From assembly GCF_018320785.1 (NCBI RefSeq), contig NC_054878.1:31819523-31883522 (forward strand): a DNA stretch of 64,000 nt. The letters run 5' to 3'. Positions 775 to 44,001 of this stretch are shown here, in pieces. A model generated the notes under the pieces. It worked only from the letters and a program-made list of their open reading frames with translations. It made no database searches and was not told the DNA's origin. A program made the translations under genes and the position numbers. This DNA is from Cheilinus undulatus. Taxonomy: Eukaryota; Chordata; Actinopteri; Labriformes; Labridae. Every line of letters begins with the position of its first letter. Position 1 is the first letter of the stretch.

Positions 775-3700
775 GCACCTCAGAACCTGATGAGGGACAT
801 TGGTCGCAACATCAACAAACTTGTGAGGGAACTCAAGACAGCAGAGTCTCCTGAGGCAATGGTTTATCTGAGACTATTAGGAAATGAACTGGGATACCTG
901 AAGACTGACGAAATCACAGATATGGCCTACTCTGCTGCCCTAATGATCGACAATATGTTCAAGATGTTCCCTACAGATGTAATATGACAAAACTAATCTT
1001 TATTTACAATATATATAATTTTTTATCATTTAAGCTACATTTATATTAATATTTTTTTCTGCGGCAGCTAATGAAGGCTCTCATGACCAAGACCGACAAC
1101 ACAATCTTTGCCCACTATATCTTCATGGACAATGAATTCTCCCTGCCAACTGCCACTGGTGTGCCTCTGAGGATTGCCCTGTCTGGTACCTTCACCCCTG
1201 GCATCAAAGGTGGACTTAAGATTGCTCCTGACATGGTGGGTGTTTAAAACAACATCAAAAATCAAACTCAATGACACAAAAGCCACATGTTGCCTATGTC
1301 TCCTGTGTTTCTACAGAGTGAAGTCAGCTTCATGCCCTCTGCTGGCATAGAGTTTGACACGCACATTGGTTCCTTCATCCCTGAATACGTCAACTCTGGT
1401 TTGGAAATGCACACCAGCATCTTCCACGAGAGTGGTCTCAGTGCCAAGATCTCCATGGCCCGTGACAACATCAAGCTGACCATCCCTGCTCCAACAAGTC
1501 CTACAAAAGTCATCAAAATGACGTAAGCCTGGAGTGGAAAATTCAACAGACTTTGCACTTCTGTGCTAGGCAGCTGTTGGCAAACTAGGTCAAAAGCTAT
1601 ACATTGACTATAATTGAAAATGCAAGACAAAAACTATTTACTTACTGCTGCATTTGCTTGTGATGACAGACTAGATAGAGGCCAGGGTATGGTTAAGTGT
1701 ACCAAGAAAGCAATGTCCCTATGTATATTTTATAAAATCTTGAACTGCTTTCCTCGATAGAAACACCCTGGTGGCAGTATCTGGATCAGCTGAGATGATG
1801 ATCCCCCCTGCAGTGACAGACAAGGTTGATGTAAGTGAGTGCACACTCTTCTTCACTGGAATGAAATACTGCACTTCTCTGCAGTACATTGATGCTTTCC
1901 ATGAGGAGACACCTTACTTCCCCTTCACTGGAGACAGCAAGTAAGCAAAACCTCCTAAACCATAACCAAATCCTTTCCTTCTACAAAAAGATTATCTCTG
2001 CAGTTTGATGATTCCTTAATAATCAAAATAGGTTTGCCATTGAACTCCATCCAACTGGTGAAGTCACTGAGTACACAGCCACTCTTTCCTATGAGCTCCT
2101 CAGAGAGGGAGAAGAGGGCCGTCAGAAGGTTGACTCCGTGAAGGCTGTTCTGAAAGCTGAGGGTAATCTAACTGAGGAATAATTTTGATGCATTACTAAC
2201 TTTATTTGGAATACAGGTCACTAAAGTTGAGTTATGCTCGTTTCACTCTTGGCAATCAAAAACAGGTGCAGAGCCCACTGAAGCTGCTGCAATCTTGAAG
2301 TATAACAGAAGGAAGAATGTCCTCACAGCTGACATCCAGATCCCAGATTATGATGTCGAGGCTGGACTCAGGCTAGGTGTTGTTGATGGAAATACCAAGG
2401 GCAAAGGAACTCACTCCATCTCTCTTGACTTAATCAACAAGAACATCCCTCAGCTCTCTCTGGTTGGCCGTGCCAAGTAAGAAATCAGCAACAAAACCTC
2501 TGGAACATTGAAGTCACTGTAACAGTCAGAAAGGCACTAACTCACTGGTATACTTTTCAGACTTCTGGCCATGAAGGATGCTATGCTCCAAGTCCAACTA
2601 CTCGTCCCTTCAATCAGTGCTGATGCCACTGTCACCACAAACCTGAAACGTGATGAAGACATAGAGTTAGCACTCAAGAGTCAAATCACGGTCATGGATG
2701 CCACATCTGAGCAGAAAATCACAATGAGATATGGTAGGAAATCATCAGTTGCACTAATTTTCTGACATCAAAGAGTGAGAATCATTTTGTGAATGATCCT
2801 TGGTTTTGTTACTTTTACAGGCGCCAGAAAGATGGAGGTTGAATTAAAGTCTGACGTAAACTCAGACACCACAGGTATCTCTCACTACGCTGACTACATC
2901 AAGAAGTATGGCAATGACATTCTTGAGTTGCAGGTTGGGGAGACCGAAAAAACAGTCAGTGAAATGCTCAAGGAATTTATGAAGGTATGGACTTTGAAAT
3001 TGTTAGACCATTAAATCGCGTTTTTCAGAATAAATAAATAATGATTTATTCTTTTTTCAGGCAGTAAACAACCACATGGAAGTGTATGCTGCTGATATCC
3101 CTTATATTCAGAACTTCAGAGTGCCTGACATGCCTGAGATTTCCCTGCCTGAGAAATTATTCCTCAACACGTAAGGCTTATGGAAATCAGTGATCAATCA
3201 TCTGGCTTTCAGAAATGTTAAGATCGAAATATTGTTATTTCTTATTATTTCTGTTCACAACAGTGAGGCAAAGGCTGTCTACTACTTCAACAACGAGCGA
3301 TTCACTATCTCCCTTCCTCTTCCTCTTGGTGGAAAATCAACAGAAGATCTCAACTTCCCACCAGCTTTGACCACACCTGCCATCTCTCTGCCCCAGTTTG
3401 GACTGGAGATTGTTTCTGTGGAAATTCCCATCCCAGAACTCTTTGTCCCTGAGAGCTTTACTCTAGCTATTCCTCTTTTTGGAAAAGCTGAAGTTTCAGC
3501 TCTGATGAAGAGCAACCTCTACAACATGGAGGCCTCTGTGGCTGCAGGCAAAGATGTTGTTGAGACACCAAGCTACTCAGCTAAGTTTGATGTGACAGGA
3601 ACCTCCCCAATTGACGTTCTCTCAGTAAATCTAAAAGGTAATATGTAGTAAATGACACTGAGGGTTCAGAAATCATGAAATTAGCCAACAATTTCAGGGA

Positions 3701-6700
3701 ATGTTATGTCAGTATATTTGCAATAATTATTCACATTTCATTTTGTGTTTTATATAGGATCTGGAATGCTGGCCACCACTGAAACCATCAAGGCCCAACT
3801 TAAAGGTTCTCTTGCCCACAAATTCATTGAGGCTAGTGTTGATATACTCGAAGATGCCATTATCGCAGACAAAATCAATTTGAGATCAAGCTTCAAGGTT
3901 GATGCAACAAGCCCCCTTGGTGTCAAAATTGCACTTGAGCACACTGGTATGGCAGGAGTCAACACTGAAGAAATCTCTGCTGATAGCGACTTAGAGGGAA
4001 CAGTGACAGTTGGACCCATGAATGGAAAGGCCATTGCAACTCAGACATTCGCCATTTTCCCACTCAAGCCAGAAGCAAAGATTGATTCCTCTGTTCAGAT
4101 TGACTCCACACTTGTCAAGGCCCAGAACACCATTGCAGCATCTCTTGCCAATGGTGAACTGTCAGTGATGTCAAACACCAATGCCTTTGAAGACACTCTG
4201 ACCCATGTTGCTGAGCTTTCATTTAAAGACAGCAAGCTGTCTCTGAAATCTGATGCCAATGCCATGCCTCTTGGTATTAAGGTCCGCAACCAGGCTGAGG
4301 CCTCTGCTGGTGCAGGTGAAGTCCTGCTGAGAATGGAGACCAATGCAGACTACAGTGAAAACCGTGTTTACTCTCTGCAGACTGCTTCCCTCAACACCAA
4401 CGGTCTGACTGTGAACAGCGACGCCACCATTAAGATCCTTGAGAATGAGGCAACTCACAAGGCTACTCTGACAATGAACAAGGATGGTCTGACCACAAGT
4501 GGATCCAACACTCTTCAGAGCCCCCTTACATTGGAGAACACATTCAATGCTGGCTTAGATGCTGCACAGGCCTCTCTGTCTATTACCAACAAGGCTGTTT
4601 TGAGCGACATTAAGGTTGATAATGCAAACACTCTGACAATTACTCCAGCCAGCCTTGACTTCAGCTCAACGGCTGAGGCTGCAGCAGGTGAGTATGCTGC
4701 TTACACTCATGATATCACCGTTGCTCTGAAAGACTACACAGCAACTGCCAATGTTAACAACAACCTGAAACTTCTGGAAGCCAACCTCATCAATGAGGCC
4801 AAGCTTCAGGCAGAGCTCTACAAAATCGATCTCACTGGAAGCCTGAAAGCTGTGTATGGCGAGGAAGAGATCAAGCACCTTTATGAGGTGAATTACGCTG
4901 ATATGGCAGCACTTGCAAAATGCAGCACTACTGGAAAACTCCTTGGAACTCACATGAACCAAAACACTGAGATTGAAGTTATTGGCCTTGCTGCCAGGAT
5001 CGCCAACGATGCCCGCTTCAACTCACAGCCAATGCGCTACGACCACACCATCCGTGCCAGTGTTGTGCCTTTTGATTTCAACCTTGATGCCATCGTCAAT
5101 GCTGACGGAGACATGACCATGTATGGCAAGCACAGTGCTCAGCTCTACGGCAAGCTCCTCCTTAAAGCCCAGCCCCTGGGACTGGCTAGCTCACATGAAT
5201 GGAGAGCATCACTGAACCAGCAGCTGGATAATGGTTTCACCCTTGAGACAACATTGGACAACAGCATGGTCAATGTTTTGTCACTCCAAGAACAAAAGAG
5301 CAGTTTTAGATTGAAGTCTAAAGTTAACGACCATATCTTCAATCAGGACTTAAGCATTTACAACACTGCTGAAAGAACAGGTATTGAGGTTTCTAGCAAC
5401 ATCCTCACCAACATCCTCAACAGCGAGTCCACAGAGAACCAGGAATTTGGCATCTCAGGCTTCTTCAAATATGACAAGAGCACAGACAGTCATGTAATTC
5501 AGATCCCTCTTATTGACCTGCCAGACTTGCTGGAAAATATCAAGGGCTTTTTCTTGTCTGCTGGAGAGGCCCTGCAAAGTTTCATAAACAATGAGGAGGT
5601 AAAGGCAAGACTTCAGGCTATTCCCAAACATGTAGAGGACTTTGTAACTCAACTGAATATAGAAGAAAGGGTTATTCAGCTGCAACAGTATTTAAGTGAT
5701 TTTACACAAGAATACATGATTTCCATGGAGGATGTGGAAGCCACTCTGAGAAATTTGAAGGAAACTGTTGAGAAACTGCTGTCAGATCTCCGTGCTTACG
5801 CCAAACACTTTGCTGGTGTGATTAAGGAGGTTATTGTCAGCGGCACCCTTCCTGAAACCCTCATTCAGACAGTCCAGCAGCAGTGGGTTGCCTTCAATGA
5901 ACAATATGACATCAAGGCCATACTTGTGTACGTGATTGATGCAATAGCAGAGATGGTCCAGCAAACTGACCTGGAAAAACTGAAGGACAGCAGCATTGCA
6001 TTCCTAAATGATCTTGAAGCCCAGTATGAAATCAAGGCAAAACTGCAGGGAATAATGAGTTACTTGAAAGAAAGAACTGAGGCCTTTGATATGGAAGTAT
6101 TTCTTGCTGATCTGAAGAATTACATTTCATCTATTGACCTCAGAGCTCATGTTGATGAACTAGTAAGTCAGATCCCCACTGAGATGCTCATAAATATGAA
6201 AGATTACATTAGGGATGTAATTCAGAACCTTGACATTGTAGGTAAGATCAACACATTTTATGCTAACATCGGGGAGCTGATTGTGAAGTTTGAGGTTGAC
6301 AAAAAGGTTCAAGTCATCTTTGACAAGGTTGTAGAGCTCATCAAGCAGTTCAAAGTAGATGAAAGCATCAGGGCTTTAGCCAAAATGTTGATTGATGCAG
6401 ACATCCCCGCAAAGGTCATGCAAGTCGTCCAGGGCACCATCGACTACCTCAAAACAACTGAGTTTAAGGATATAATTGCTGAGTTTAATGTATATATTCA
6501 CGTTATTGAGCAGAAATTGAATTCATTTGATTACAATGACTTTGTGGCTCGTGCCAATCAAATGACAGCTGAATACACTTCGGTTGTGAATGACCTTATC
6601 GTATCTCTTGAAATCCAAAAGAAACTTGAGGCATCAAGGGACTTTGCCATCTTTGTCTTGACCTCTATCAGAGATACACTGGAACAACTGAAAGAAATCA

Positions 6701-9700
6701 AAATGATGGAGTTGTTGCAAAATGCAAAGGACATCTTTGACAAGTTTGTGCTGACTTATCTAAAAGAGTTTGCTGAAATTATTAAGCAGGAAATTGAAAA
6801 CCTGGACATAAATGCTAAGATTGACTCTTCTTTTCAGTTTGCAAGGAAGTTTTACACTGACTTCATCACCACTGCCACTGATATGCTCACCAGCGCAGCT
6901 GAGATGATTAAGAGGGTTGCACCTCAGCCGAAAATTGTCGAAGAGATATGGCAAATCATCGAAGGCCTTATAACTGGTCTGAAGAACGCTGAATTCAACA
7001 TGCCATCTTTCACCATTCCTCTCACTGATCTTGTTGTTCCTTCGATGAAGTTCAGCATAGACAATCTCTACCAGTTTGAAGTCCCACAACGACTGGATAT
7101 TCCTGAGTTCACCATCATGGGTTTCCACACCGTGCAAGCCATCAGCATCTCAATTGACGACATTAAACAGAGACTAACTGAACTGATAGATTATCTTCTC
7201 AACTGCCAGATGAAGATGCTTGATATGGGTGCTTCATATGGAGACATGATCTTGATTTACATCCCTTCCTTGCCTGAGTTTTCACTTCCAGAGATTACAG
7301 TTCCTGAGTTTTCCATTCCTACACTTCCACAAGTTCAAGCAGAGAAACTCACTGAGACTCTTACACTTCCACCATTCAAGCTGCCAGAAATTCCTTCTGA
7401 GATCATGATTCCAGGATTTGGTAAACTGAGTTCTGAAGTTAAAATCAACACTCCCATTTACAGTATTAAGAATGCTGCTGAACTCCAGAGATCTCTTGAT
7501 GTAGATACTCCTCAGCTGACAGCTTTCCTCACCTCCCAAGGTACATCTATCAGCTATGACATCCTTAACTTTAACCTGGATTCCACCGCACGCATTGCCG
7601 TTCCCGAGGGGCGTTTGATTGCTGCTGAGACCTTTAAGTTCACTCACAGTTTCCTGATGGTAGATCATGATGTATCAATGACATTTTCTGACTTCACAGC
7701 TCAGGTCTCAGCTAAGACCACCATTAAGTCCACAACAGAGCCTTATAATGCCGAGCTTGTAAATGAAGCTTTCTTAGCCACCAATGGTGGCCTATCTGCA
7801 ACTATGGACACTTCTTATAAACATGTGCTCAACCTACCCATCATAGACCTCACTGGTGAAACATCAGTAACTCAAAAGGCTGCTGCCCGCCAGGAAGGTA
7901 CCTCTATCACATTAACTTTGGGAAATCAGGGTACTGCCACCCTGAACTCTAAAGAGAATTCCCACAAAAGTGACCTACAAGTCACAGTCAATCCACGTTC
8001 CATCAAATTCAACTTCAACAGCGACACAGATACATTTCTTTTAAAGCTGAAGCAAACACTCAGTGCTGACTCTGTCATCTTCAGCTACTTCAAGTTTGAT
8101 ATCCGCTCTGATGTAGAAGGCCCTGCACTTATAAACAACCACTTAATGGGAGAGGTAACTGCTAATATGCATGACACAAAGCTTGAGTTTAAGGCAACCC
8201 ATAGCACAGATTTAAGTGGTAAGGTGAGTGGAGTTCTTAACAATGTGATTGATGTGGTTCTCAGTCCCAAGGAACTTGTGTTCAGCCTGCAAAACAAAGG
8301 AAACACAAAGTTTAGTCTATATGATGCCCTGGCTGTCAAAATTGATCTGCAAAATGATTACTCTGCAACCTTCAGACCCGATACTCAGCATATGAACACA
8401 GTAGCTCTGGCTCGTCTTAATCAGTACAAAGTTTTCTGTAGCTTGACTGCACATAACAATGAGCAGGAGGCTGCTATTCTTGCTGCTGTAGAAGGGGAAG
8501 CAAACCTTGATTTCCTGACAAGGCCCATCAGCATTCCTGAAATTAATATTCCATTTGTTGATTTAAATACCCCAGCCATCAGTGACCTGAACTTGTATGA
8601 GGAGACTGGACTGAAGAACATTCTAACCACCACTGAGCAGACTGTAAATGTAGAGGCAAAGGTTGCCCTCAAGAAGAGTCAAGCTGCCCCACTTGCTGAT
8701 ATCATGGGTCTTATCCAGATCCCCTCTGTGGATAACCTAATCACAGAGCTGTCGTTCAAGTCTGCCATTATAAATCTGAATGTCAATGCTGGACTGTTTG
8801 CGGAGGCTGATCTTGTATTCCGCCTGAGTGCCACCACAGCTTCTGTGTTTGAGAGTTTAAAAGCTAAACTTGATGGTACCACTAGTCTCAGCATGAGGAG
8901 AGGAATCATGCTCGCGAACTCTCTTTCCCTTGAAAATCAGCACTTTGAAGGATCCCATCACAACACAATCAGTTTGGGCCCTGAGACCCTAGGAACTGCT
9001 TTCTCTGTGAAAACAGAAGCAAAGATTTCCCTGCCTGTACTCAAGCTAGAGGGGAAACAAAATCTGGTTGCTGACACCAACACCAAACCAACTGCTCTTT
9101 CCTACTTCAGAATCATGGGTGATTTTGATATTCCAAGCATTAAGGCTGTTGGAAAGGCTAAGATAGATCACAGCGTGAAGCTGGATGGATCATTTGAATT
9201 TGTTTCTATGGAGTCATCCACAGTGGCAAATGTGGACAGCACAATACTTGAAGATTGCCTTGTACAGGGATCACTGGACAGTGAGATCAATCTGTATCTG
9301 AATAACAATGGCTTACGCTCTGTTTCCAAAGTCATTGCTGATTCCAAGCTTAACTATGGCGAAACCAAAATCATTAGCACGGATATAAATGAGAACCTTG
9401 AAATTGAAGCCTCCCTTAGCCGTGTTTATACAATGCTGAAATACAATGGCAACAACGAGGCAAATGTGTTCAATTTCAACACCAATGGGAGGCATAATCT
9501 TCAGACAACCATTGACTTTACCCCATCTTCATTAACCACAAATATCGAGATTGAAATATCTCAGCCAAGCAACCTGGGTGACCTCTCCCTGTTTGAGAAG
9601 ACTGTTGCTGAAGTGAAAGCTGCCAAGCAGAAGGTTTCTACCAATGCCAAGTTTGTGAGCCCACTGTACACTACAACTCTAGCTGCTGAACTGGATGGAA

Positions 9701-11389
9701 GCACTCCTGTATTCAAGGCTGACTTAAAGTCATCTGCCACTTCTGCCATTACCTTCTTGGATTACGACTTTGACTGTAAGTTTTGTTCTGAACATAATAC
9801 AGGTTTACATGTGAAATAAAAAGTTACAGTTTTAACTAAAGTCACTATTCTTTCACAGCTTCTGTTACCCTTACCTTTGAGGATGAAGGCATAAAACTGA
9901 CTGGAAGGGGGATTTTCACCCACAGTGATGTGACCATGGACATTCAACAAATACTTTCCCATACACTGAGGTGAGAGTTAAACAATATTAATCATTTATA
10001 ATATCTATAGTAATATTTTGTGGATTTTACTTCAGTAACTTCATTAATACTCTACAAACACCTTTTTACAAGTGCTCCAAGTAAAGACAAAGTACAGATA
10101 AAGTTACCTTTATTTTCTTCCCTCTCCAGCGAGTCCCGCCTCACCTTTAATGTGGACGTAACCAGCCCTGCCTTCACTGACATGAACGTGCGTTATGCTG
10201 TCCGCAAAGATGGAATCAGTAGCACAATTTCAATTCCATCTACTGGATTCCTCGGCCTTCAGCTCCATGGCAGGATCCCATCTCAGATGAATGCCAGGCT
10301 TTATGGACGCTACGCTGTAAGTGTCTTATGCTGCTTTTATATTTGAACGATCATAGTAACCAAGTTCTTAACATGTTATTTTGTTTTTTTTTCCCTCTTA
10401 AACAGTCAGATCCTGGGAGGGACGTTGATATTTTCACCATTCGAGCTTCTATTAAAGATACTGATAGAATGAAACTGAAGATGCTAATCAACACGGAGGC
10501 CCCTGACATCATGCTTAGTGGATTGCAAGAAAGACTTCCTGCCATCACCTCCAGTCTATCTAGCTTTGCTGACAAATACCACCTTTCTACACATGCTGCT
10601 CAGCTGAAGAACATTGTAATCTATTACACTGGGGAAGCCTACAACATTGCAAATAACCACACCCCAGATATGAGCCAGGTGTCCATCCTCTTTAGGAACA
10701 CTATTGTTCAGTACCAGAGAACTGCTCAGGTATTCCTGGATGCTATCATCAATTTCCTGAGGGAGACCCGGGTGAAACTGCCTGGCTCTGAGGAGATGAC
10801 CCCTCTGATTGAGGTGCTCAATAAAATGACCACTAGCATTACTTATTGGCTAGAAAAGGCATTGATCTTGATGGCTGATAATGCAGACAGTGCTTTCAAT
10901 GTTGTAATGGGCACTATCAGTAAGATACAGGTCAAAATGCCCATTGGTGACGTGATGGCCAATGCAAAAATATTTGATGAGATAAGGGAGAGGGTAAGAA
11001 CATTTACTGAGCTTGTTATGGATCGTTTGAGAAATCCAGAGAGTCTGGATATCTATCTGCTGAATCTGGGTGACACTTTAAAATTCTTCGTAGAAAAAGC
11101 TCAAGACTTTGTTGACAACACCTTTAAGTCTGATTACCTTGACGCCATTGCCGTCTACATTAATGCATTCTATGAGGAAACTGCCAAATTAATGAAAACA
11201 ATCACTGAGTATGCAAACACAGCTTTGGACGTGGAGTTTTTAAAGAGCACCATTGATTACATTCTTGATGTGGTCAGATCTACAGTGAATCAAATCAACA
11301 AAACCATCTCTGACTATCTGCAACAGGCCCCTGCTCAGCTGCAATTTTATGCAAAAGTTAAAAATGGAAAGCTTGAGATAAATCTGTGA
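775..11389 (+). CDS. apob: Apolipoprotein B, tandem copy A (5' end outside the window)
   Basis: ApoB is the secreted, non-exchangeable scaffold protein of VLDL/LDL-type lipoproteins, loaded with lipid in the ER by MTTP. Fourteen coding exons join in frame: 775-978, 1068-1235, 1317-1522, 1761-1940, 2032-2162, 2266-2476, 2561-2733, 2821-2984, 3061-3170, 3264-3637, 3758-9775, 9859-9970, 10130-10316 and 10406-11389 (stop TGA 11387-11389). They give 3,074 codons including the stop. All introns are GT-AG. Eight of the first ten exons have exactly, or within 9 nt, the same length as their partners in the downstream copy; the other two differ by 12-15 nt. The giant exon followed by exons of 112 and 187 nt and a large last exon is the typical vertebrate APOB 3' layout. 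If the missing N-terminus equals copy B's (718 residues), the protein has about 3,790 residues, shorter than the 4,563 of human APOB. Orthology to fish apobb.1 or apobb.2 cannot be decided here. Confidence 0.95.
3758..9775 (+). other. apob: Giant exon of apoB copy A (6,018 nt)
   Basis: This exon encodes about 2,006 residues and corresponds to the single giant exon of vertebrate APOB. In order it shows: a beta-strand-rich lipid-associating stretch (3758-5460); a long run of amphipathic, heptad-like helices rich in Leu, Ile, Lys and Glu (about 5500-7000); a proline-punctuated strand segment with repeated LPEF/VPEF-type motifs (about 7260-7400); and a second beta-rich region (7410-9775). Compared with copy B it has about 410 more residues between 5461 and 7411, but lacks about 58 residues near 4570-4700 and about 97 residues near 8660-8720. 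No internal stop or frameshift is present, so the copy looks functional. Confidence 0.9.
8884..8910 (+). other. apob: Position equivalent to human LDL-receptor binding site B, copy A
   Basis: The flanking residues (EGTT-like before, LA..LSL and EGSH after) align well with the human apoB segment holding receptor site B. The nine residues here read SLSMRRGIM. Human site B, from memory, is RLTRKRGLK with five basic residues; here only two arginines remain. The alignment is by eye. Confidence 0.6.
10406..11389 (+). other. apob: Terminal exon of apoB copy A (C-terminal helical domain)
   Basis: This last exon codes for 327 residues and ends in a TGA. The product is strongly helical and matches the C-terminal apoB domain, including a segment around 10741-10800 (FLRETRVKLPG) that resembles the FLNFPRFQFPG-like motif of human apoB and [11 protein letters not shown] of copy B. 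It is about 45 residues shorter than copy B's last exon, which ends in a different tail. Confidence 0.85.
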
Positions 11390-11606: not shown

Positions 11607-11612
11607 AATAAA
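11607..11612 (+). terminator. apob: Poly(A) signal of apoB copy A
   Basis: A canonical AATAAA lies 218 nt after the stop codon, giving a short 3' UTR of about 240 nt, similar to the one in copy B. Confidence 0.8.
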
Positions 11613-17205: not shown

Positions 17206-17560
17206 CAACAGTCACAGAGCTACTCTGATCACAACTCAACAGTCACAGAGCTACCCTGATCACAACTCAACAGTCACAGAGTTACTCCAATCACAACTCA
17301 ACAGTCACAGAGCTACCCTGATCACAACTCAACAGTCACACAGTTACTCTGATCACAGCTCAACAGTCACAGAGCTACTCTGATCAAAACTCAACAGTCA
17401 CAGAGCTACTCCGATCACAACTCAACAGTCACAGAGCTACTCTGATCACAACTCAACAGTCACAGAGCTACTCTGATCACAATTTAACAGTCACAGAGTT
17501 ACTCTGATCACAACTCAACAGTCACAGAGCTACTCTGATCACAACTCAACAGTCACTCTG
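17206..17560. repeat. Minisatellite, 31-bp unit, about 11.4 copies
   Basis: Consecutive copies of a 31-bp unit (core CAACAGTCACAGAGCTACTC followed by TGATCACAACT) start at 17206, 17237 and so on, with 12 occurrences of AACAGTCAC. Copies differ by only a few substitutions, so the array is young or homogenised. The unit is not a multiple of three, and the open frame through it is an artefact. Each unit carries the palindrome TGATCA. Confidence 0.95.
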
Positions 17561-25708: not shown

Positions 25709-25737
25709 ATGGATGGATGGATGCATGGATGGATGGG
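25709..25737. repeat. (GATG)n microsatellite
   Basis: About seven GATG units with one GCATG interruption. Confidence 0.9.
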
Positions 25738-25747
25738 GCTAAGTGAG

Positions 25748-28400: not shown

Positions 28401-28410
28401 GGACAGCTCA

Positions 28411-28475
28411 GACTTTGGAACCAGGGCAACACATTTGCAAGTAATCACATACAGTAAGACTGCAGGCCTATAAAA
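28411..28475 (+). promoter_or_regulatory. apob: Core promoter of apoB copy B: HNF4-like, C/EBP-like and TATA motifs
   Basis: A TATA box (TATAAAA, 28469-28475) lies 92 nt before the start codon, which predicts transcription start near 28500 and a 5' UTR of about 65 nt. Upstream are CTTTGGAAC (about 28413-28421), resembling an HNF4/DR1 half, and ATTTGCAAG (about 28433-28441), resembling C/EBP. In human APOB the proximal promoter also pairs a CTTTGGACC element with a TTTGCAA element, so liver and gut expression is a reasonable inference. Confidence 0.55.
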
Positions 28476-28566
28476 GACAGGGCAACAAAGCAGGAGAATT
28501 AGTCTTCACAGAAAGAGGAGGACTCTCCCTACCTTAAAGCTTCTTGGAGCTTTACTAAAACCCATC

Positions 28567-31500: not shown

Positions 31501-34500
31501 CTATCCAAGCTGATCGATAGCACCCAGAGCTGTAACTACAAGTTTGACAACCAGAAAAAGCACATGACCACCGTGACCTGCGCGGAGAAACACATCTTCC
31601 TGCCTCTGTCTTCCGAGTGAGTTTCAAAAAGTTGAAGAATGTAGAAAAAAGATTGGTGAAATAAGCTCTAGCTTTCTTTTACTCCTATTTTTGGTGCTCA
31701 TTTTAATTCATCTCTTACTGATTTTTTTATTCCCACAATGTACAGAAATAATTTTGCACCAATTCCAGTGTTTTTTCTTCTTTTTTGTTGAGGACAGAAA
31801 ATCAACTTCTACTTTCCTATTTTTATAAAAATTGTTTTAAAATAGAGAAACAGATTTACCATTTCTTTACATTTTCTTATTGACGAATTAAAAGTATAAC
31901 GGGCGAAATACTTTTCAATTCCATATGTGCAATATGGAGTTGTTTTAATATCTGTCAACAGTTTAGAGTTTTTTTTTTTTACTTTTTATGATTGATTTTG
32001 GTTATAAGCATGTAATGGTCATAAATTAAAGCTCTTGTGAGGAGCATTAGTTTGTGTTGACACTGGCGCCCCCCGGTGGACAGACCAGTACATGACTTTT
32101 ATTTTCCTACTTTCTATGACTTGTACATTTAAAAGAAGTGGTTTATCCCCCTCTGCTTTCCATGCATCCCTCATCACATATGAAAAAACATATTAGGGAA
32201 GTTTTTGTAACATGCTTATAGTCACTTTAAGTGGCACCTACCCCACCACAGCAGTTTCAGATATTTTAAACAACTTTTTTAACTTCAAGAAATTGAAATC
32301 TAATGGTGCTGCTTGCTTTTTGGGGCTCATACAGAGACATCACCGAGAGTCTTTTTTTGTAACCAGCTTGAAACTCCTCCCGGGAGCTTTAATATCTGTT
32401 TAATTATTTCACAATGCAATTTCCTAATTACTCTTCACTTCCATACAAATAACCGAATTCATGTTATTTGTATTTATGACTAATTTATGTACGTCTATCT
32501 TCATATAGGAAGGAATATGGAATTTTTACATTGTTAAAGCAGACTTTGAATCTGAGGGAGACCTCCAAGATCAACGACAGAATCTTCGACCGTAGTAAGT
32601 GTTCAAGTTGTTAAAATATGTTAGAAATAAAACGTTAAGAGCATGTTGTAATATATTTTTAAGCCTAAAAATATCAGTTTGTTTTCATTTTCTCTTGTTT
32701 CTAATTGTTTGTGATTCATTTTCTTTGCAGATGAGATCAACATCAAGTCCCTGGCCATGGATGTTGCTGATGACAAGCTCCCTGTGCAGACCACCGATGC
32801 CGTCATGTCCATCATGCAGGAGCTGAACACCCTGACCAATGGTGAGACGCGTGCCACTCTCTTCCACAACCTGGTGTCCGAGCTGCGTGGCCTAAATGTC
32901 GACACCGTTGGATCTGCTGCCGTTGAGATGATGGATGTGTCTGGAGCTCTGACCTTCCAAGCTCTGGCTCAGTGCGGCACCCCAGAGTGCACCAGCGCCA
33001 TGCTGAAGGTTCTCAGGACATTTGACCAGGCTGCTCTTGAAGTCGATGCCGCCGTCTACGCCCTGGGACTGCTGTCTAACCCCTCCCGCCTGATGGTGAA
33101 AGACATGCTGGCTATGGCTCAGTACAAGCAGAGCAAACCCATCATGTATGGTCTGAGCAATGCAGTCAGGAAGTAAGTACATATCATCCTTTTAAATCTC
33201 AGCTACAAGTGGTGTTTTTCATACAAATCACTAATCTCACTTTTTTCTTTCTTAGACTGTACCAGGCTGAGGGTGTAACCCCTGAAATCACTGCTGTCTA
33301 TGAGTACATTGCTTCCATTCTGAGCACTGACTGCCCTGGAGAGAAAGATCTGACCTTCCTGACCCTGAGAGTACGTCTCCATCTCTAAAATTTAATCCCT
33401 TCTCACACTTTTATGCAAACTTCCAGCACCATCCATTTTCTTCAGGTAGCCCAGTTCCCTTTTTAAAAATTCTCCTTACCATCCAGGTTGTTGGAAACAT
33501 GGGAGATGCAATGGAGGCTGCTGACCCAACCATCAAGGCTACCCTGCTGAAGTGCATGAGACAGCCTGCAACCACCCTGTCAGTGCAGCTGGCTGCCATC
33601 CAGGCTTTCAGACGCATGTCTGTGACAGATGAGGTACCCAACATCTCCTTTGACAGATCATTATCCTATTCTTGTTATTGTATAGTGCAGTGACAAACAA
33701 TGATCTTTTCTCTCCAGGTTCGCTCTAACCTCCAGAGAGTCAGCCAGTACCCCAAGGGTGCTGTGCAGAAGCGCCTGGCAGCTTACCTGACTCTGATGAG
33801 GAATCCTCAGGACAGCGACATTGAGATGGTGAAGAAGCTGCTGAGACAGGAGCAGAACATGCAGATCAAGTCATTTGTGACCTCCCACATCTACAACATC
33901 ATTACCTCCACCGACGCAGAGACTCAGAAGTAAGAACAGAGCAACTGTCAGCACAAGTAGTGCTAGCTCAAATGAAAATACTCTGCAAATGTAACTACAC
34001 AACTACCAACATTTAGCTGATTTTTCCCTACATTATTAATCCTTTCAGGTTTGGCAGGAAGATTCTGGATGCCTTGGAGGACCCTGAGGTCATCACACAC
34101 AGTGACTACACCACAATGTCTCGCAACTACAAGCTGAGCGGCGTTCAGGGCAACATCATCTTTGATCCCAGCAGCCAGCTGCCAAGGGAGGTGCTGCTTG
34201 AGACTACACTGAAAGCTTTTGGTTTCAACATGGATGTTTGGGAGGTATGAAATACTCTTCTTTAGATTGTCATTTTCCATTGTCTAGAAGCTCAAGCAAA
34301 GAATTTCTATTTATAACAACAGAAAACTGAATGTATTTGACCCAGATTCTGACTGAACTTTCATGTTTTTTTCTCCGACAGTTTGGCATGGAAGGAAAGG
34401 GCTTTGAGCCAACCATTGAAGCTCTGTTTGGACAGAATGGATTCTTCCCCGACACCCTGTCAAAGGCTCTGTACTGGGCTGATGACAAGATGCCACCAAA

Positions 34501-37500
34501 GGTCAAAGAAATCCTGAGGAAATGGGTTCCAATGGAAACAGACAATAATAGGGTAAACTTTAGATGTCATTTCTTTCAATAACAGCCCTTCATTGGAGTC
34601 ATTTCTTTTTCATCTCATTGTGACTAATGCATCTTTTTTTTCCCAAAGGTTCCTGAGAATCTTATGAGAGAGGTCACACGCAACTTCAACAAGCTGGTCA
34701 AGGATCTGCAGAGCCAGGATACCCCAGAGGCCATGGCCTACCTGAGGATCATGGGAGCTGAGATGGGCTTCATCAAAGGCAGTGAACTAAAATTTATTGC
34801 TGATAATGCAATGATGTATGCAGATATCTTCATGAGGATCATTCCTACCAAGGTACTGTTTTGTTCACATGTTTTATATGTATTCAAAGCCTATCCAACA
34901 TTCAGAAGTTTCTTTTGTCCGTCAAAGCGATAGACAGTTAAAAGTGGATTTTGATTCTTTATCAGGTCATGGCTAAGCTGATCTCCAGCACTGAGAATGA
35001 GATCTTCGCCCATTACATCTTCATGGACAACAAGTTCATGATTCCAACAGCATGTGGATTGCCTTTGACATTTGCTCTGTCTGGTACTTTCACTCCTGGT
35101 GCAAAGGGAGGCCTTCGCATGGCTCCAAACATGGTAAATATTTCCTATTTTGTATTTTATTTATACAACTTTGATTCATGTACTCCCTCAAAAAATCCTG
35201 CAAAGCATTATTGAAATATATGACGATAATAAAAGTGCTAAAAATTGGTGTAACAGTTGTTTTTTGGGGTTTTTTTTTTTGAGATGTTATGTGGAGAAGA
35301 AGTGTGTTATAGTTTTCATGATTCTGCACCCTTTTTGATTCTATATGATCTTGTTTGGTTTTACAGAAGGAGCTGGTGTTCTCACCCTCTGTTGGAGTTG
35401 AGTTTGTGACCAAGATGGGAATCCACATCCCTGAATTTGTTGCATCAGGTGTTGAGGTGCACACCAACATGTACCATGAGAGTGCACTCAATGCCAAGAT
35501 CACCATGGAGGAAAACCAGGTCAAGCTTTCCATCCCTGCCCCACAGGGTACCACAAGGTTCTTCACAATCAGGTAACAAAAACACAAAATATGCTTTATA
35601 CATTTCAGTACGTCCAAAAACCACTGTACTGCATAGTACTGCAATTTTAACTGAGTCTGCTCTTTTTCCTCTGTTACAGAAACAAAGTGCAGATTGTGGG
35701 TGGTGGTTTTGCTGCAGAGATCCCAAGCAATGAGGGTGAATCCAGTTGCAAAGTTCTCTTCACTGGAGTCCAGTACTGCACAAGAGCAAGTCGTGCCAAC
35801 ACTCGTGGCAGGACCAATGTTCCTTATTACCCTCTCACTGGAGAGACTAGGTGAGATGTTCTTTGAAATAAAAAAAAAAGATTCTTTTGTCCTCTGTAGT
35901 TTCACTGAAGAAAACAAAAGTAATAGTTAACATAATTTGTTATATCTCTGCATTGTCAATTTGTGATGTTTTAATTTGAAAGACGAGGTTAAAAGAACTG
36001 GGAATAATTTGGGTATATATAATGGATTGTAACTCACTTATTCAACTATTGACAATTGATATTATGCGTCCCCTCAAGTAAGTTGTTGGCCCTGCTTCTT
36101 TACATTCAGTGGTGGTATCATAAGTTGGATTAGTTTCTTTATATTTAGTTATAGGTCATTTAGTGAGGAAACAAAGTAGTTTTAGTTTAGATTTAAAGCC
36201 GACTATCAGTTAAGAGTTCTTTGAAAACCCCTCTGACTTATTTTTTTCCCCACAGTTATGCTGTGCTGATTAAGCCCACTGGCAAGGTTTCTGAGTACAC
36301 AGCCACCATCGCCTATGAACTCCTGAGTGAAGGAAAAGATGGCCGCCAGAAGGTTGACGCTTTGAATATTGCCCTGAGAGCTGAAGGTATGATCCTCTTA
36401 TTCAGGGGAGAAAAATCTAAAGCCATATAGCATCCTTGTTTGTCTTGGGCAACAAATATGAAGTTATGTTTTTTCTTACATTTTGTCCCTAGGTACCGAG
36501 ACCACTGAGGCAACAGCCACCATGAAATACAACAGGAACAGGAATGTCTTCACCACCCAGGTCCAGATCCCCGACTTTGATGTTGAGGCTGGTGTTAAGA
36601 TTGGCATGACTGACAGCAGCGCCAAGGGCAAATCTATCATTTTTGAGATTTCCGACAAGAACGGGCCTCAGATCTCTCTGATTGGCCGTGCCAAGTGAGT
36701 CAACTCAGGCATATTCAAACAATATCATAAGTTACTCAACGTATCTACTGAAATAGTCTTTTAGATGTTTCTTAAGTCTTTGGGCGGGGTTAAGTGATGG
36801 GGGTTGATTAAATCTTTTTTTGACAGGCTTCAGGCCATGGCTGAAGGCATGATGCAGGTTCAGCTTCTGGTCCCCTCACTTCAGACCGATGCTGCCGTTA
36901 CAGCTACAATGAGCAATGCTGACGGACTCACAATGGAGATCAAAAGTGACATGAAACTCCCAGAGACCACCTCTGTTCAGGCTGTCACATTCAAATATGG
37001 TATGTCTGTTTAAAAACATGGTGCTAAAAACTTCATTGATTAAACATTTCAATTAATCTGGATTTTTCCAAGCACGGTATCAAATTAGACATTAAAATAC
37101 TGAATGCTTCTCATCTCAGGTGAAGACCAGGCTGAGGTTATCCTGATGTCCAGCATGAACGCTGATACTAAGATCCTGGTGCCTTACACTGAAGCCCTCC
37201 AGACCTGGCTCATGCAGTTTGTGGAGGATGTCATGGACCAGCAGGTTGTGAAGACCGACATGAAACTGCGTCATATCTTCAACAAGGCAGTTGAGGTAAG
37301 AAACCATAAATCTCTACTCTATTAGCAGGTTTTATGTAGCCTTTCAAACTTAAGCATGGGAAATGTCATGTGTGTTCAATAGGCCAGCAATATCTGGATG
37401 GACAAGATCACAGCGGACGTGCCCTACGTTGAGACCTTGAGGGACAAAATGGCAAATATCGAAATGCCATCCATGCCTTCCATGCCTGAAACCCTGTTCA

Positions 37501-40500
37501 TGGACCTGTAAGTAAACATACTTATAAGAAATACAGCCATATCCTGGTAAAACTGTTGTATATTTAATGTCTAGTTGCTTTAATGTCTTCTCCTTTTTCT
37601 TCCTCTCAACAGTGAAAGCGCAATCAAATACAAGTTCAACGAAGAACGTCTGGCCATCACTTTCCCTCTGCCTCTTGGTGGAAAATCCTCTGAAGAGCTG
37701 ATGATTCCTCCAATGGTCACCTCCCCAGAAATTTCTATGCCTCAGCTGGGCATGGAGGTTGCCTCAAAGGAGATCAGAATCCCCACTTTCACCATCCCTT
37801 CAGAATATGATTTCACTCTGCCTCTGATGGGAATGGTAGAAGTGACCTCCAAGGTCAACAGCAACTACTATAACTGGGAGGCAACTGTGTCTGCTGGTAA
37901 CAACACAGTCGAGTCTCCTAGCTATGTGGCCAAATTCAGCATGAAGGCTGACAGTCCCATTAAGGTTCTCGCCTTTTCAACGGAGGGTAATTTAAACTTT
38001 ACTCTCTCAGTAATTTAAGAATTTTATACATTTTTAAACACAAAAAGCAGATGAATTGTGTACCACATTAATATTTGTATGGTTTTGTCTTACTTACAGG
38101 AATGACTACAATCACAGACACTGCAGAGAAAACCATGAAAATGGCCACTGAAGGCTCCATGGAGCACATGCTCATGAGCACTGGTTTTGGTGTTCTGGAA
38201 ACCATTGCTGTCACAGACAATGTTCTGTCAACTGGAAGGTACAATGTGTACGTTAGATCCCCTGTGGGTCTGGACACTTCCCTGACCGTTACCACCCAGG
38301 TCGTCCTTGCCTCTGATGTGCTCTCTGGAGACATCAACACAGATGGAAGCATTACCATTGGTCCCATGACTGCTAGCACTACCTATCTTCACACCTTCTC
38401 CGTTGAACCAATGAAGAAAGAAGCAAGACTGGAGAGTACACTGCGTGTGACCTCTGAAATCCTGAAGGTAATGAACAAGGTGAAGGCATCATATGCAAAT
38501 GAGGAACTTCTGATCGAGTCCAACACCAACATGAACAGTGAACCCATCAAGCACACCACCAAAATGAGTCTTAACTACAAGGATGTCAAGCTGACTGCCC
38601 AGGCTGATTCTGTGACCAAGGCTGATGAGCGAATGCTTCGTAGCCAGTTTGAGTTCTCTGCCTCTGAAGAACAGGTCATCCTCAGGATAGAAAATCAAGC
38701 TGATGACACTGAGAACCGTGCCTACTCTTTGCTCACTGGGTCCATGACCCCCACTGGTGTGGAGATCAACACCGATGCCTCCCTGAGCATCCTCTCAAGC
38801 CTTGCCTCTCATAAGGCCTCCTTTGCCCTGGACATGAATGGCCTGACCACAAGCTGCACCACAACTGCTCAGTTTAGCCCAATGACCTTTGAGAATGTTT
38901 TCCACGGTGGAGTTGACGCTAATGGTGCCACCATGTCTCTCACCACAAAGGGAGCCATTAAAGATAACACAGCTGAGCTCAATGTTGAAGGAAAGATGGC
39001 AACTTCAGAGGTGTATTTCAATGGCATTCTTAAGGGTAACCTCTTTGACATTAACACCAGAAACAGAGTGAACCTCAGACTGAATGAAGATGGCCTGATC
39101 CTCTCCAACAACATCGTTGGATCTCTCAATGAGATGAGGACCGAAAATACCCACTCACTGGCTCTTACTCTTAGCTCCTTCACACTCAACTCCAAGACTG
39201 ACAACTTCCTCAACACCAAAAACTCCTACATGCATGATATCACAGTTAACATGGAGCGCTTCACCGCCTCTGTTATGGTGAAAAATGACCTGAAGATCAT
39301 GGATGTCAACTTTGTGAATGATGCCCAGTTCAAGGCCAAGCCTTACAACATGGAGCTGACTGGAACAATGATGGGAGTCTTTGCAGAGGAAGAACTCAAG
39401 CATATTTATGAAGTCAAGTTTGTTGACATGGTGCTCTCTGCCAAGTGCAACACTAATGGTAAACTCCTGGGCACACACATGACTCATGCCACTGATATGG
39501 AGATTGCTGGTCTGACCATGAAGTTCAACAATGCAGCCAACTTCAACTCACCATCTCTCCGCCTGGACAGCACAGTCAAAACTGTTGCTGAACCTTTTGC
39601 TCTGAACATCGATGCAGTTCTCACTTCAGATGGTTCAGTGCGTCTGTTTGGAGAGCAGAGCGGTGAGCTGTACAGCAAATTCCTCCTGAAAGCAGAGCCC
39701 ATGCTGTTCACACATTCACTTGAGTGCAGAGCCTCAACAACCCATGATCTGGAAGGCAGACCAAGTATCAAGACCAACATGAACAACAAGTTCAACAGCA
39801 TGCTGAGCTTCCAAGAGCAAAGTGTCAACCTGAAGGTTACAGCTAATGTGAATGAGCACACTTTTGATCAGGAAATGAGCGCCTACAACAACGCAGAGAG
39901 GCTGGGTGTAGAGATGACAGGAGAAGTCACTACCCCTTTCTTCACCGAGGCCAGTGAAAATTATGCCATCTCCGGATTTGTGAAATATGACAAGAACAGC
40001 GAAAGCCACTTCCTCCAGATCCCATTCATTGAGCACCTGCCTGCCTTTTTTGAAAACATGAAAATAACAATGATGGGCCTGATGGACCGAAGCATTGAAA
40101 TGCTGGGCGATATCAACTCCAGGTATGAGATCAGCACAAAGTTCCAGAACAAAGTGTCTGAACTGAAGGAGGTCATTGACAACTTCGACTTCAATCTCTT
40201 TGTCCAAGACCTGAAAAAGTTCCTCACCTCAGTTGAAAACTATTTGACCAATCTGACAGCCAAGTTGCCAACCGAGCAGATTGTGAATGCATTGATGACA
40301 GTGAGGGATGCCATCATGAGCTGGATCAAGCAGTATAACATTCCTCACAAGTTCAATTTGATCTATGCCAAAATTGAAGAGATCCTTTCCAACTATGAGG
40401 TTGAGAAGATGGTTGAAGCTGTCATGGATGAGGTGGTCAAAATTATGAAGCAGTATCAGGTTAGGGAGAAGATCCAGGCTGTGTTTGCTGCTGTAAGGTC

Positions 40501-43500
40501 CATCGACATCAAACCTGTGCTCCAAAAAGTGATGCTACCTATTCAGGAGTTTGTCAATGAACTGTATTCCTTTGACTTCAAACAGCTGATCGATGACATG
40601 AGTGACTATTTTGCGAGACTGGTTGAGAAAATCAAATCTTTTGATTATGACACATTCACAATGGAGCTGAAAGAGAAAGTGGCAGAAATGAGCAAGATCC
40701 CCTGTTTCGGAAAGCTCTCTGGAGAGTTCAAGGTTACCTCACCTCATTACACACTCACAACCTCTGCTGCCTTTGAGAACACCACAACTACATCAGTCAC
40801 ACCAGAGTTCAAACTTAACCTTAACTCTCAGGCTTCTTCTACCTTGAAAATCCTTGACTTCTCTTTGGACGCGGGAGCTCACATCGCTGCACCCAAGATG
40901 AGCCGCCTGTCCATCACTGAGAGCATCAAAGTTGGCCAGTCATGTCTTGCATTTGACCACAAGGGAACCATGACTCTGTATGGCCTGTCACTTCAAGCTT
41001 CTACTGAAACAACCGCAAAGGTTGATACCGAACTTTACATTGCTGAGCTTGTCAATAATGCATTCCTCGCCATGGAAAATGGAGTGTCTGCCAACATGGA
41101 AACAACATACACTCATGACATGAAACGCTTCGGTAAAACATCAATGAATCAGAAGGCTGTTTTTGTGATTGAGGCTGGCACTGCTACTCTGACTATTAAC
41201 AACTTGGGCGATGGACAATTCACAATTCTGGACTTTGCTGATGAGGCATCCCACAAGAGTGATATTGAGGTGGTCATGGATCTCCACACAGCCAAAGTGA
41301 CCTTCACTGGAGCAACAGGCAGCAGCAACTTCAAACTGAATCAGAATGTGATGGCAGATATTTGCATTTTCCGCCACATCATTTTTGATGCCAAGTTTGA
41401 GACAGAGACACCTGTCATGAAGGGTAGTGTTGCAGCAGTCAAGTTCCAAGCTAAAGTTGAAGACATGAAAGTTGATTTCACTGCCTCTCACAATGCGGAG
41501 CTTACCGGACAGGTTGAGGGAACCATCGCAAGTTCCATGCTTGCTTTGATCACACCTAGTGAGTTCATGTTTGACACCAAGAACAAGGGAAATGCCAAGG
41601 TTACCCTCCCATTCAAAGTGTCCGCAAAGATTGATCTCCAGAATGACATGTCTGCAACCCTGAACTCTGAAGTGCAGCAAGCTAGCTGGACCGGTCTGGC
41701 TCGCTTCAACCAGTACAAGTACTCCCATTACCTCAGCATGGATAATGGTGATAGCGAAATCAACATCTTCTCCCAGATTAATGGAGAAGCAAATCTTGAT
41801 GTACTGAGGGAGCCAATCACCATTCCTGAAATAAATATACCAATTTTTGGTATCAAGACACCAAGTGTGGAGGACTTCTCTCTTTGGGAGGACACTGGCC
41901 TGAGCAATCTCTTGATCACAACTCAGCAGACACTTGACATGAGCTCCAAATTGAAGTACATGAAGAACCCAGAGATGTACACCATTGCATACATTAACAT
42001 GGATCCAATCATCAACATCATCAATACCAATGTCGAGAACATGCTCATCAGTAAGGATAAGGCTGCTGACATCCTGGCTACATCTTATGACAGAGCAAGG
42101 TCAGAGTATGAAAAATACAGCATTGAGCTGCCCAAAACCATCACAGTCCCTGCCTACAGAGTTCCAGTAATGAATGTCGAGGTGTCTACTTTCACCATCC
42201 CCCTGCCCGACTTCAGTCTCATCACAATGCCTGCCTTCCATGTCCCATCTGCCCTTAGCAAGCTCACGGTTCCAAAAATCCCCCTGCTCGGTGTCCGAAG
42301 CATCAGTATCCCTGTGATGGGTGATCTGACTTATGAGTTTGCCTTGAAAACAGCTGTGATCACACTCAAAACTGACGCCAGCATTCTTAACCAGGACAGC
42401 TTCATTGTCAGACTCGATGCCTCCTCCCTCTCTGAATTTGAGTGCCTGAATGGAAAGATTGAGGGTAACACAAACATTAACACCGCTGCTGGACTTAGAA
42501 TGGCCTCTGTCCTGTCTGCAAAACATGAAATGCTGGAGGGAAGTCATGAGAGCAACATCATCTTGAGTTACGAGACTGTGGATACCTCCATCACTAACTC
42601 AGCAAAGGTTATTCTGCCTGCCCTGACCATGGAAATCAACCAGGAAATTGTTGGAAACTCAGATGAAGGCCTTGTTGTGTCCATGTCCACTCCATCTGCA
42701 GGACTCATTGCACTTCAGATGCAGACCAAGCGCCCTGCCCAAGTTAAAGCAAGACTCTATGGCCGCTACCCAGTAAGAAAACTTTGAATACTCAGTTGAT
42801 ACCCAATAACCTCTGAATGTGATTTCAATATTCATGGTGTTTGCTTTGTAGTAATACATCTTTTCTTTCATGTTCCCCACAGTCTGAGCCAACAACAGAC
42901 ATCGATATCTTGGGTCTGAAGATGTCTGTGATGAACTCTGAGAAGCTGAACCTCCAGACAACCTGGAATATGGAGATGCCATACGAGATGATGCTGCGAA
43001 TGAAGAAACAGGTGCCCGCAGTCATGGAAATGGTGTCTGATCCTGCTGTGAAGACCTATAACACAATCTACAGGCATGCTAGAAGCCTTGAGGGTTCTTA
43101 TGAGCAGGCTAAAGAGCAGGGCAAAGTGATGTTGAAGAATGCTGTTGACAATCTTGCAAATGTAGATCCTTCTAGTGTTATGACAACTGTCACAGATAAA
43201 GCCATTATGATGCTGAAGAGATACCAACAGAGAGTTAATATGGTTCTTGATGCTGTTGTTAAGTTCCTGAGGGAGACAAAATTCCAGTTCCCTGGGTATG
43301 AAGAGAGGCTGTCTGGGCTCGAGATCTACCAAAAACTTAGTGCCTTCGTTGCTGATGTAACTGAGGAGGCCGTTCAGAAGATTCCAGAGTACTTTTCCAC
43401 CATGTTTACTACAGCCCTTGATTATTTTAGATCAATTGAATTCACCATCCCTGGCTCTAACTACATTGTCAGCGGAAGGGAAGTTCTCGATGACCTGTCT

Positions 43501-44001
43501 GTGTTTTTGGGGAAAGTTCAGGACCAGGTGATTGTCACTGTTAGGAAACTGGGAAACATCCAGCTGGAAGATATTTTTACCAAATTCTCTGATTTCATGC
43601 GGTTTGCCACTGAACAAAGCGAGAAGTTTCTCCTAACCCTTAAATCTCAGAATGTAGAGAAGCTCTCCACCTTTGTGAGTGATGTTTACACTGATGCCAT
43701 CAACTCCCAAATTCTGGCTGATGTTGCCACACAGGTAGAGGAGGCCCGCAGAATTGTGATGGAATATGTTGAAGCTGTGAAAGCTAAACTCGAGGATATT
43801 ATGGCTAACATGTCTACTGAGCAGCTTCAGGCTGATATTCAGTCCTGGATTGACTTGATGGTAAAACGTATTAATGCTCTCCAGAACAACATCATTAGAG
43901 CTCTGAAGGAAAAAAGCAAAAAGGTTGAACCATTTGTCAGAGTCAGTGATAGACAGATAGATGTTGATATTCCTTTGCCATTTCTTGCCACAGTCAACTA
44001 A
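28567..44001 (+). CDS. apob: Apolipoprotein B, tandem copy B (complete)
   Basis: Complete secreted apoB, the structural scaffold of hepatic and intestinal lipoproteins. The 26 coding exons are 28567-28621, 28967-29011, 30055-30167, 30263-30408, 30527-30674, 31077-31229, 31492-31616, 32509-32594, 32731-33172, 33256-33370, 33487-33633, 33718-33929, 34049-34244, 34382-34552, 34649-34852, 34966-35133, 35367-35572, 35680-35850, 36256-36386, 36493-36694, 36827-36999, 37120-37295, 37383-37507, 37613-37986, 38100-42772 and 42883-44001 (TAA). They sum to 9,876 nt, an exact multiple of three, giving 3,291 residues versus 4,563 in human APOB. Residues 1-18 are a signal peptide (cleavage after ALA). Residues of about 40-600 are the cysteine-rich vitellogenin_N lipid-transfer domain that binds MTTP; beta-sheet and helical lipid-binding regions follow. 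The ATG is chosen for its signal peptide and fit to the promoter. Compared with copy A it has internal deletions (see findings). Confidence 0.96.
29529..29645. repeat. Inverted repeat (hairpin) in intron 2 of apoB copy B
   Basis: The left arm GACCTACTTAAAAG-AA-GTGCTTCAA (29529-29553) pairs with the right arm TTGAAGCACTTTTAAGTAGGTC (29624-29645), with a 2-nt bulge and a loop of about 70 nt. It could be a small palindromic MITE or an RNA hairpin. Confidence 0.6.
32065..32079 (-). promoter_or_regulatory. CTCF-like motif in intron 7 of apoB copy B
   Basis: On the - strand the sequence is CCACCGGGGGGCGCC, which differs at one position from the vertebrate CTCF core (CCASYAGRKGGCRSY). It is a GC-rich island in an AT-rich intron. 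It may be an insulator site or part of a dispersed repeat that carries this core. Confidence 0.4.
38100..42772 (+). other. apob: Giant exon of apoB copy B, fused to a former downstream exon
   Basis: This 4,673-nt exon codes for residues of about 1362-2919. Its last 35 or so codons (from about 42668) align with copy A's separate exon 10130-10316 (for example [13 protein letters not shown] here against SIPSTGFLGLQLHG), including the shared end RLYGRY followed by an intron in the same phase. Copy A's 112-nt exon and both introns around it have no counterpart. The helix region between 39985 and 40701 is about 240 residues long, against about 650 in copy A. The segment 41951-42330, lost from copy A, is kept here. 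Confidence 0.85.
42473..42499 (+). other. apob: Position equivalent to human LDL-receptor binding site B, copy B
   Basis: Aligned by the flanking EG-T and EGSH residues, the nine residues here (residues 2820-2828) read NINTAAGLR. Only one basic residue remains where human apoB has five, so a site-B-type heparin/LDLR contact is not expected. Confidence 0.6.
42883..44001 (+). other. apob: Terminal exon of apoB copy B (C-terminal helical domain)
   Basis: This exon codes for 372 residues ending in TAA. It is a long-helix domain with the [11 protein letters not shown] motif near 43270 and ends in a short beta-like tail rich in Asp, Ile and Pro. It is about 45 residues longer than the partner exon in copy A. 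Confidence 0.85.

Follow-up and report, generated by a model that had tools for sequence, protein, structure and literature searches.

The Apolipoprotein B Array

The stretch considered here, referred to throughout as the window, comprises 64,000 nucleotides of Cheilinus undulatus (GCF_018320785.1, NC_054878.1, 31,819,523-31,883,522, forward strand), in which two genes for apolipoprotein B (apoB), the protein that envelops the lipid-carrying particles of the blood, here called copies A and B, follow one another in tandem. Some 17-32 kb upstream of the window there is a third tandem gene, named Z, and a fourth apoB gene, longer than the tandem copies and designated apoBa-like, is found on contig C18, the count of four having been obtained from a genome search in which only the best candidates were scored. 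A preliminary description of this DNA had recognized two tandem apoB paralogs, which agrees with the gene models of A and B, their matches to apoB-100 and the correspondence of the first exon of A in the window to exon 15 of B, although the array to which they belong holds three genes. The intact genes Z, A and B, situated beside rhob, very probably constitute the tandem apoBb array of teleosts, accompanied by the longer apoBa-like gene on C18; the name apoBb for the array is inferred. The copies differ by internal losses that leave the reading frame open, and gene conversion has moved sequence between two of them, A and Z.

Exon boundaries of A and B were placed by reading the sequence and were then checked by script, giving the following models.

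775-11389, forward strand: the final 14 exons of copy A (numbers 15-28 of a 28-exon count), gene model
C14:31813970-31819232, forward strand: copy A, exons 3-14, to the left of the window, from a search of the flanking DNA
28567-44001, forward strand: copy B, complete gene model of 26 exons and 3,291 amino acids (aa), with a signal-peptide-like start

The part of copy A in the window comprises 3,073 codons and copy B 3,291 codons, each followed by a stop, with GT-AG at every intron of both window models and not one internal stop, so that the earlier statement that both frames are intact holds. A reading of copy A as a 5'-truncated gene has been ruled out by the location of exons 3-14 upstream of the window, the joined frame being open over 3,760 codons with exons 1-2 not counted. 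Internal stops are absent from the gene models of all four copies, the tandem copies include big exons open over 1,557 and 2,005 codons, and the C-terminal exon is retained in every copy, all segment losses being internal. The first exons of B, Z and A are signal-like, as judged by composition alone. Exon 11 of A and Z may have a common non-canonical GCAAGT donor (C14:31818353 and C14:31790392), an alternative GT donor 12 bp earlier also being possible. Reading by eye has located TATAAAAG at 28469-28476, about 90 bp ahead of the B start codon, as well as AATAAA 3' of the stop codons of A (11607-11612) and B (44185-44190).

Regarding the identity of the products, the Pfam families Vitellogenin_N (2.3e-59) and Vit_open_b-sht, an open beta-sheet family (1.2e-18), have been detected in the N-terminal part of copy B. 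Against the PDB, apoB-100 is matched by the big exon of A at 4.4e-236 and by that of B at 1.3e-215, and the similarity is collinear over nearly the whole length, past the N-terminal domain. Two observations weigh against this identification: Pfam assigns the big exons to no family in either copy, and the final exon of B, searched by itself, matches human apoB at no better than E = 6.6, its apolipoprotein match in Pfam being likewise below the cut-off. A vitellogenin identity was rejected, given that the big exon of A matches apoB-100 alone in the PDB (E up to 1); at the same limit the big exon of B matches apoB-100 plus one chance-level entry. Elsewhere in the genome, the top Vitellogenin_N matches lie on C7, where three exon groups (G000:C7:24289991-25173242, a pair of them separated by some 20 kb) are presumably vitellogenin genes, while two weak matches at G000:C13:33528702-33535995 perhaps belong to a microsomal triglyceride transfer protein gene.

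Segments Missing from Each Copy

The A and B proteins share 915 of 2,433 aligned residues (approximately 38-40% identity). Segment edges were taken from a three-way alignment of A, B and human apoB, some of them shifting by 3 to approximately 13 residues in a five-way alignment of human apoB, apoBa-like, Z, A and B (4,624 columns). The human sequence used agrees with the PDB letters in 15 of 15 blocks (1,292 of 4,563 residues) and has the right total length. All of the following features lie on the forward strand.

5545-5964, forward strand: segment of 140 aa in A and Z, gone from B (A 1237-1376, human 2086-2235)
40061-40066, forward strand: B junction of the 140-aa loss
6544-7407, forward strand: segment of 288 aa in A and Z, gone from B (A ~1570-1857, human ~2436-2751)
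~40652-40699, forward strand: B junction of the 288-aa loss
9082-10208, forward strand: segment of 295 aa in A and Z, gone from B (A 2416-2710, human 3450-3612 and 3876-3994)
42662-42667, forward strand: B junction of the 295-aa loss, within one exon
38966-39133, forward strand: segment of 56 aa in B, gone from A and Z (B 1651-1706, human 1693-1748)
4606-4611, forward strand: A junction of the 56-aa loss
41966-42283, forward strand: segment of ~106 aa in B, mostly gone from A and Z (B ~2651-2756, human ~3180-3321)
8674-8709, forward strand: A junction of the ~106-aa loss
9580-9615, forward strand: site in A without most of human ~3614-3875 (third distal proline-rich cluster)
9776-9858, forward strand: A intron, also found in Z and apoBa-like but not in B
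9971-10129, forward strand: second A intron, likewise shared with Z and apoBa-like and lacking in B

The preliminary description had assigned to copy B a single gap of about 410 residues, a size that proved right, although the gap resolves into two deletions (140 and 288 aa) on either side of a kept, putatively helical block (A 5965-6543, B 40064-40654). Its further loss of about 295 residues from B is recovered in the alignment as A 2416-2710, and the losses of about 97 and 58 residues proposed for A correspond to 94 residues of the ~106-aa segment, counted in A-gap runs of at least 8 columns, and to the 56-aa segment. The 288-aa segment of A contains the first distal proline-rich cluster and the ~106-aa segment of B the second. 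The third deletion of B spans both introns listed above, leaving one fused exon; the exon between these introns measures 112 bp in each gene that has it (A, Z and apoBa-like), and its absence from B is consequently a loss. The human exon sizes at this place, 115 and 184 bp, are in rough agreement.

Missed exons were rejected as the source of these differences. Every lost segment sits within a long open exon, and the only intron near a B junction (42773-42882) is, at 110 bp, too short to conceal the segments, which have no good match elsewhere in the window (best stray E = 0.005).

The human equivalents claimed for the segments do exist: part of each aligns to human apoB collinearly, beating all 100 shuffles in five of five cases, and the distal part of A 2416-2710 separately matches human 3889-4097 (7.9e-17). 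In the five-way alignment all segments in question are present in human apoB and apoBa-like, the pattern of presence in human, apoBa-like, Z, A and B being 11001 or 11110 for the segments and 11000 for human ~3614-3875, a stretch present in apoBa-like and absent from the three tandem copies. Human ~1690-1745 and ~3188-3313 are missing from A as well as from Z (3273-3301, within the latter stretch, also from B), and B lacks human 2086-2235, ~2449-2751, 3450-3612 and 3876-3992. Shorter differences toward the C-terminus include human 4145-4171 and 4477-4493, retained in B and gone from A and Z, and human 4101-4114, gone from B; several stretches within 4303-4476 are found in the human protein only, as are 2018-2035 and 2556-2571. 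Since human apoB and the C18 gene carry the segments, gains are ruled out and the difference between the copies is, on these alignments, one of losses: A and Z have two in common, B has three, and one further stretch is missing throughout the tandem array. That stretch could have gone in a single event in the ancestor of the three copies, or it could have been removed within two deletions that happened separately.

Proline-Rich Clusters, Putative Helical Inserts and Receptor Site

Proline-rich strands were counted by a simple motif, with 200 shuffles of each sequence as controls, the shuffled sequences giving at most 4 motifs. Human apoB has three distal clusters (10, 6 and 7 motifs), and apoBa-like likewise has three (8, 8 and 10 motifs) plus one proximal cluster of 4. 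Among the tandem copies the first cluster is found only in Z (8 motifs) and A (7), the second only in B (6), and the third in none. These clusters and the counterparts of a receptor site are located as follows.

7000-7383, forward strand: first distal proline-rich cluster, in A (and Z), absent from B
42146-42295, forward strand: second distal proline-rich cluster, in B, absent from A and Z
8884-8910, forward strand: A counterpart of low-density lipoprotein (LDL) receptor site B, SLSMRRGIM, with two basic residues
42473-42499, forward strand: B counterpart of LDL-receptor site B, NINTAAGLR, with one basic residue

Within the coding sequence of A, a 15-bp tandem repeat of 3.2 copies (7273-7320) encodes PEFSLPEITVPEFSIP in the first cluster, which hints that this cluster grew by short tandem duplication. 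AlphaFold models represent the region before the first cluster as mostly helical at low confidence, and the mean pLDDT (predicted local distance difference test) of 36 and 35 in the helix region counts against this picture, so that a mostly helical nature of the removed inserts is weakly supported by the models.

The human sequence RLTRKRGLK, which we take to be LDL-receptor site B, has five basic residues, and its counterparts in apoBa-like (SLTKTRGIK), Z (SLTTRRGIK), A and B have three, three, two and one, respectively. With the site-B cluster down to one basic residue, copy B would be expected to bind the LDL receptor less well. The codon at the position presumed to be that edited in human apoB-48 is AGC in apoBa-like, AAC in Z, CAC in A and deleted in B, in no case CAA, and no copy can therefore make an apoB-48 analogue by that edit. 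The mammalian apoB-100/apoB-48 route, suggested earlier as the way in which the copies might build different lipoprotein classes, is thus not supported as a mechanism. A C-terminal truncation of the apoB-48 type has been rejected as well, all copies keeping the C-terminal exon and the losses being internal.

The distribution of clusters may be read as a subfunctionalization at the level of modules, in which A and Z would keep the large helix domain and the first cluster and B the second, each building a different lipoprotein class. The retention of only the first cluster by Z and A and of only the second by B, set against three in human apoB and apoBa-like, speaks for such a division, as do the larger numbers of site-B basic residues in apoBa-like, Z and A than in B and the report that zebrafish apoB paralogs differ in tissue of expression (PMC4348566). 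The complementarity is incomplete, however, the third cluster being gone on both sides; A and B evolve at equal rates (281 and 260 unique changes in 2,310 columns, p = 0.37), and in zebrafish larvae apoBb.1 is reported to make about 95% of apoB (PMC4348566, PMC6668417). Taking both sides into account, a subfunctionalization of this kind is rather unlikely.

Gene Conversion Between A and Z

A comparison of A and Z by segment score and permutation has revealed one converted tract.

4094-5263, forward strand: A-Z gene-conversion tract of 1,170 bp, 99.0% identity

Identity between the two DNA sequences is 97-100% in 11 of 11 bins of 100 bp (4101-5200), as opposed to 54-74% in the 18 bins of 6501-8300, 16 of which are at or below 64%. 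The tract scores 1,014 against a maximum of 54 in 2,000 permutations, and the longest identical run is 299 bp, compared with at most 52 bp in permutations. Four-fold degenerate sites differ at 4 of 195 positions in 4101-5300 vs. 79 of 131 in 6500-8400. No comparable dip is observed between A and B, where a fraction of 0.51-0.60 of these sites differs across five bins.

The junction of the 56-aa deletion (4606-4611) falls within the tract, for which reason the loss of this segment in both A and Z may come from copying. A point against extending this reading to the second shared junction is that the patch over it (8670-8731) scores 49, under the permutation maximum of 54. Given this conversion, the losses of A are not datable to A alone; such a dating was rejected, both losses being common to Z and one lying within converted DNA. 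The earlier proposal of independent losses after duplication is retained with respect to losses, as indicated by human apoB and the C18 gene, and is qualified for A, whose two losses are found in Z too.

A stretch of 1.2 kb at 99% identity could in principle be an assembly mix-up, and the differences as a whole could be attributed to misassembled or collapsed copies or to missed exons. This explanation is very improbable: the similarity between Z and A is graded (92-99% at 3301-3600 and 81-90% at 8501-9000), the four differing four-fold sites show that the tract is not an exact copy, and the flanking DNA (41.2 kb and 45 kb) holds no N bases. The position of the deletion junctions inside long open exons, and the lack of another good match to the segments in the window, likewise argue against an artefact of assembly or annotation.

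Age of the Copies and Rates of Change

A tree of 2,955 complete columns has the form (human, apoBa-like, ((Z, A), B)), with support of 100 for Z with A and 98 for their union with B, and two rival placements are rejected by the approximately unbiased (AU) test (p = 0.025 and 1.6e-7). Subsets of 400 and 733 columns also place B with A and Z (support 93 and 96). Several results weigh against this branching order, given that the rivals on these two subsets are not rejected (AU p 0.06-0.08), that on the 672 least-converted columns B groups with apoBa-like (67%), with both placements remaining acceptable there, and that the order of the tandem duplication and the split from apoBa-like is consequently not settled on the sequences. 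The split between A and B would be about as old as that from the C18 gene, the order being not certain, and synonymous sites between A and B are near saturation, with 55% of 422 four-fold sites differing.

An alternative possibility is that the losses reflect neutral drift, the inserts of apoB being dispensable, the apoBa-like gene holding the full-length role and the tandem copies shedding tolerated segments with little effect. The presence of a longer apoB copy on C18 is in keeping with this, as is the shortest zebrafish paralog, apoBb.2, for which many deletions (data not shown in that study) and low expression have been reported (PMC4348566). Nonetheless, the genes are not decaying, the big exons being open and no copy having an internal stop, and a protein identity between A and B of approximately 38-40% has been held while 51-60% of four-fold sites differ. 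The deletions themselves may be neutral, whereas decay of whole genes is contradicted. Neutral drift is accordingly given slightly less than an even chance.

Neighboring Genes and Other Features of the Window

The tandem apoB genes adjoin rhob, which was assigned as follows.

49784-50371, reverse strand: RhoB, single open exon; best PDB match RhoB 2fv8, 1.9e-109

Exons at 53.8-61.3 kb have been read by eye as pum2, with matches of 93-97% at this locus only, and no Pfam family is found in the first 175 residues of this candidate. The arrangement recalls the human neighborhood, presumably APOB-RHOB-PUM2. Weighing against an origin of the C18 gene by whole-genome duplication, no pum2-like match is present on C18, such matches occurring on C14 and C16 only, and this origin has no support from neighbors. 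A minisatellite lies between A and B at 17205-17556 (31-bp unit, 11.4 copies, 91% matches), and Rfam and tRNA scans of the window gave no matches.

Relation to Known apoB Systems

Three apoB paralogs have been reported in zebrafish, the shortest of which, apoBb.2, has numerous internal deletions and not a C-terminal truncation (PMC4348566, Otis et al., 2015), and this gene is described as lacking shared synteny with human APOB (PMC4348566). The apoB-48 editing site appears to be absent in zebrafish (PMC6668417), and zebrafish apoB mutants have been described (PMC8410079). The zebrafish set (apoBb.1, apoBb.2 and apoBa) resembles that of C. undulatus in its several paralogs, the internal deletions in one of them and the lack of an editing site, while in C. 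undulatus there are three tandem copies, two of them exchanging sequence, and the deletions have been mapped and shown as losses. In medaka, an apolipoprotein Bb, tandem duplicate 2 (apobb2), has been named and is expressed (PMC7363821), a tandem apoBb duplicate as in the present array; the deletion pattern is not described in the excerpt of that article considered here. Human APOB (apoB-100, PDB 9bd1) is collinear with the tandem copies over nearly the whole length, with the difference that it gives one product of 4,563 aa and a short form by RNA editing, whereas the short forms here are separate genes carrying internal deletions. Vertebrate vitellogenin (VTG) genes have been suggested to be generally susceptible to gene conversion (PMC10015161); in C. 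undulatus it is apoB genes that undergo the exchange, and an in-frame deletion common to both partners lies in the converted tract.

A medaka tandem apoBb duplicate and numerous deletions in zebrafish apoBb.2 are therefore already in print. No literature report of gene conversion among fish apoB genes or of a third tandem apoB copy in fish was found among the matches listed, and the additional copy, the exchange of A with Z and the complementary retention of proline-rich modules are apparently new.

Proposed Scaffolds and Significance

Each product would be a secreted, particle-forming apoB. The losses would have removed inserts that are for the most part helical and proline-rich, together with C-terminal belt strands in the case of B, shortening the belt with the frame unbroken. 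The scaffolds would then measure 3,291 aa in B, approximately 3,790 aa in A and Z and approximately 4,400 aa in apoBa-like. It is a reasonable extension of the sequence comparison that the copies may build different particles in different tissues. The full proposal goes further, holding that modules would be lost complementarily, that conversion would pass in-frame deletions between copies, and that the gene copies would encode, as graded-length scaffolds, lipoprotein classes of different size and receptor affinity, as mammals obtain by RNA editing; taken as a whole, it is improbable.

ApoB is a huge protein, encoded by a single gene in mammals and hard to dissect, and the known human apoB truncations are mostly C-terminal. 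In C. undulatus, evolution has made internal deletions of defined stretches with the frame open, the longer copy in the same genome serving as a control, and the pattern suggests which belt inserts are dispensable. The conversion between A and Z also cautions that a gene tree built from fish apoBb copies can be a mosaic. One genome thus encodes apoB proteins of several lengths that are open to experimental comparison, providing natural variants for testing how particle size and clearance depend on the length of the belt, on its helix inserts and on receptor site B.

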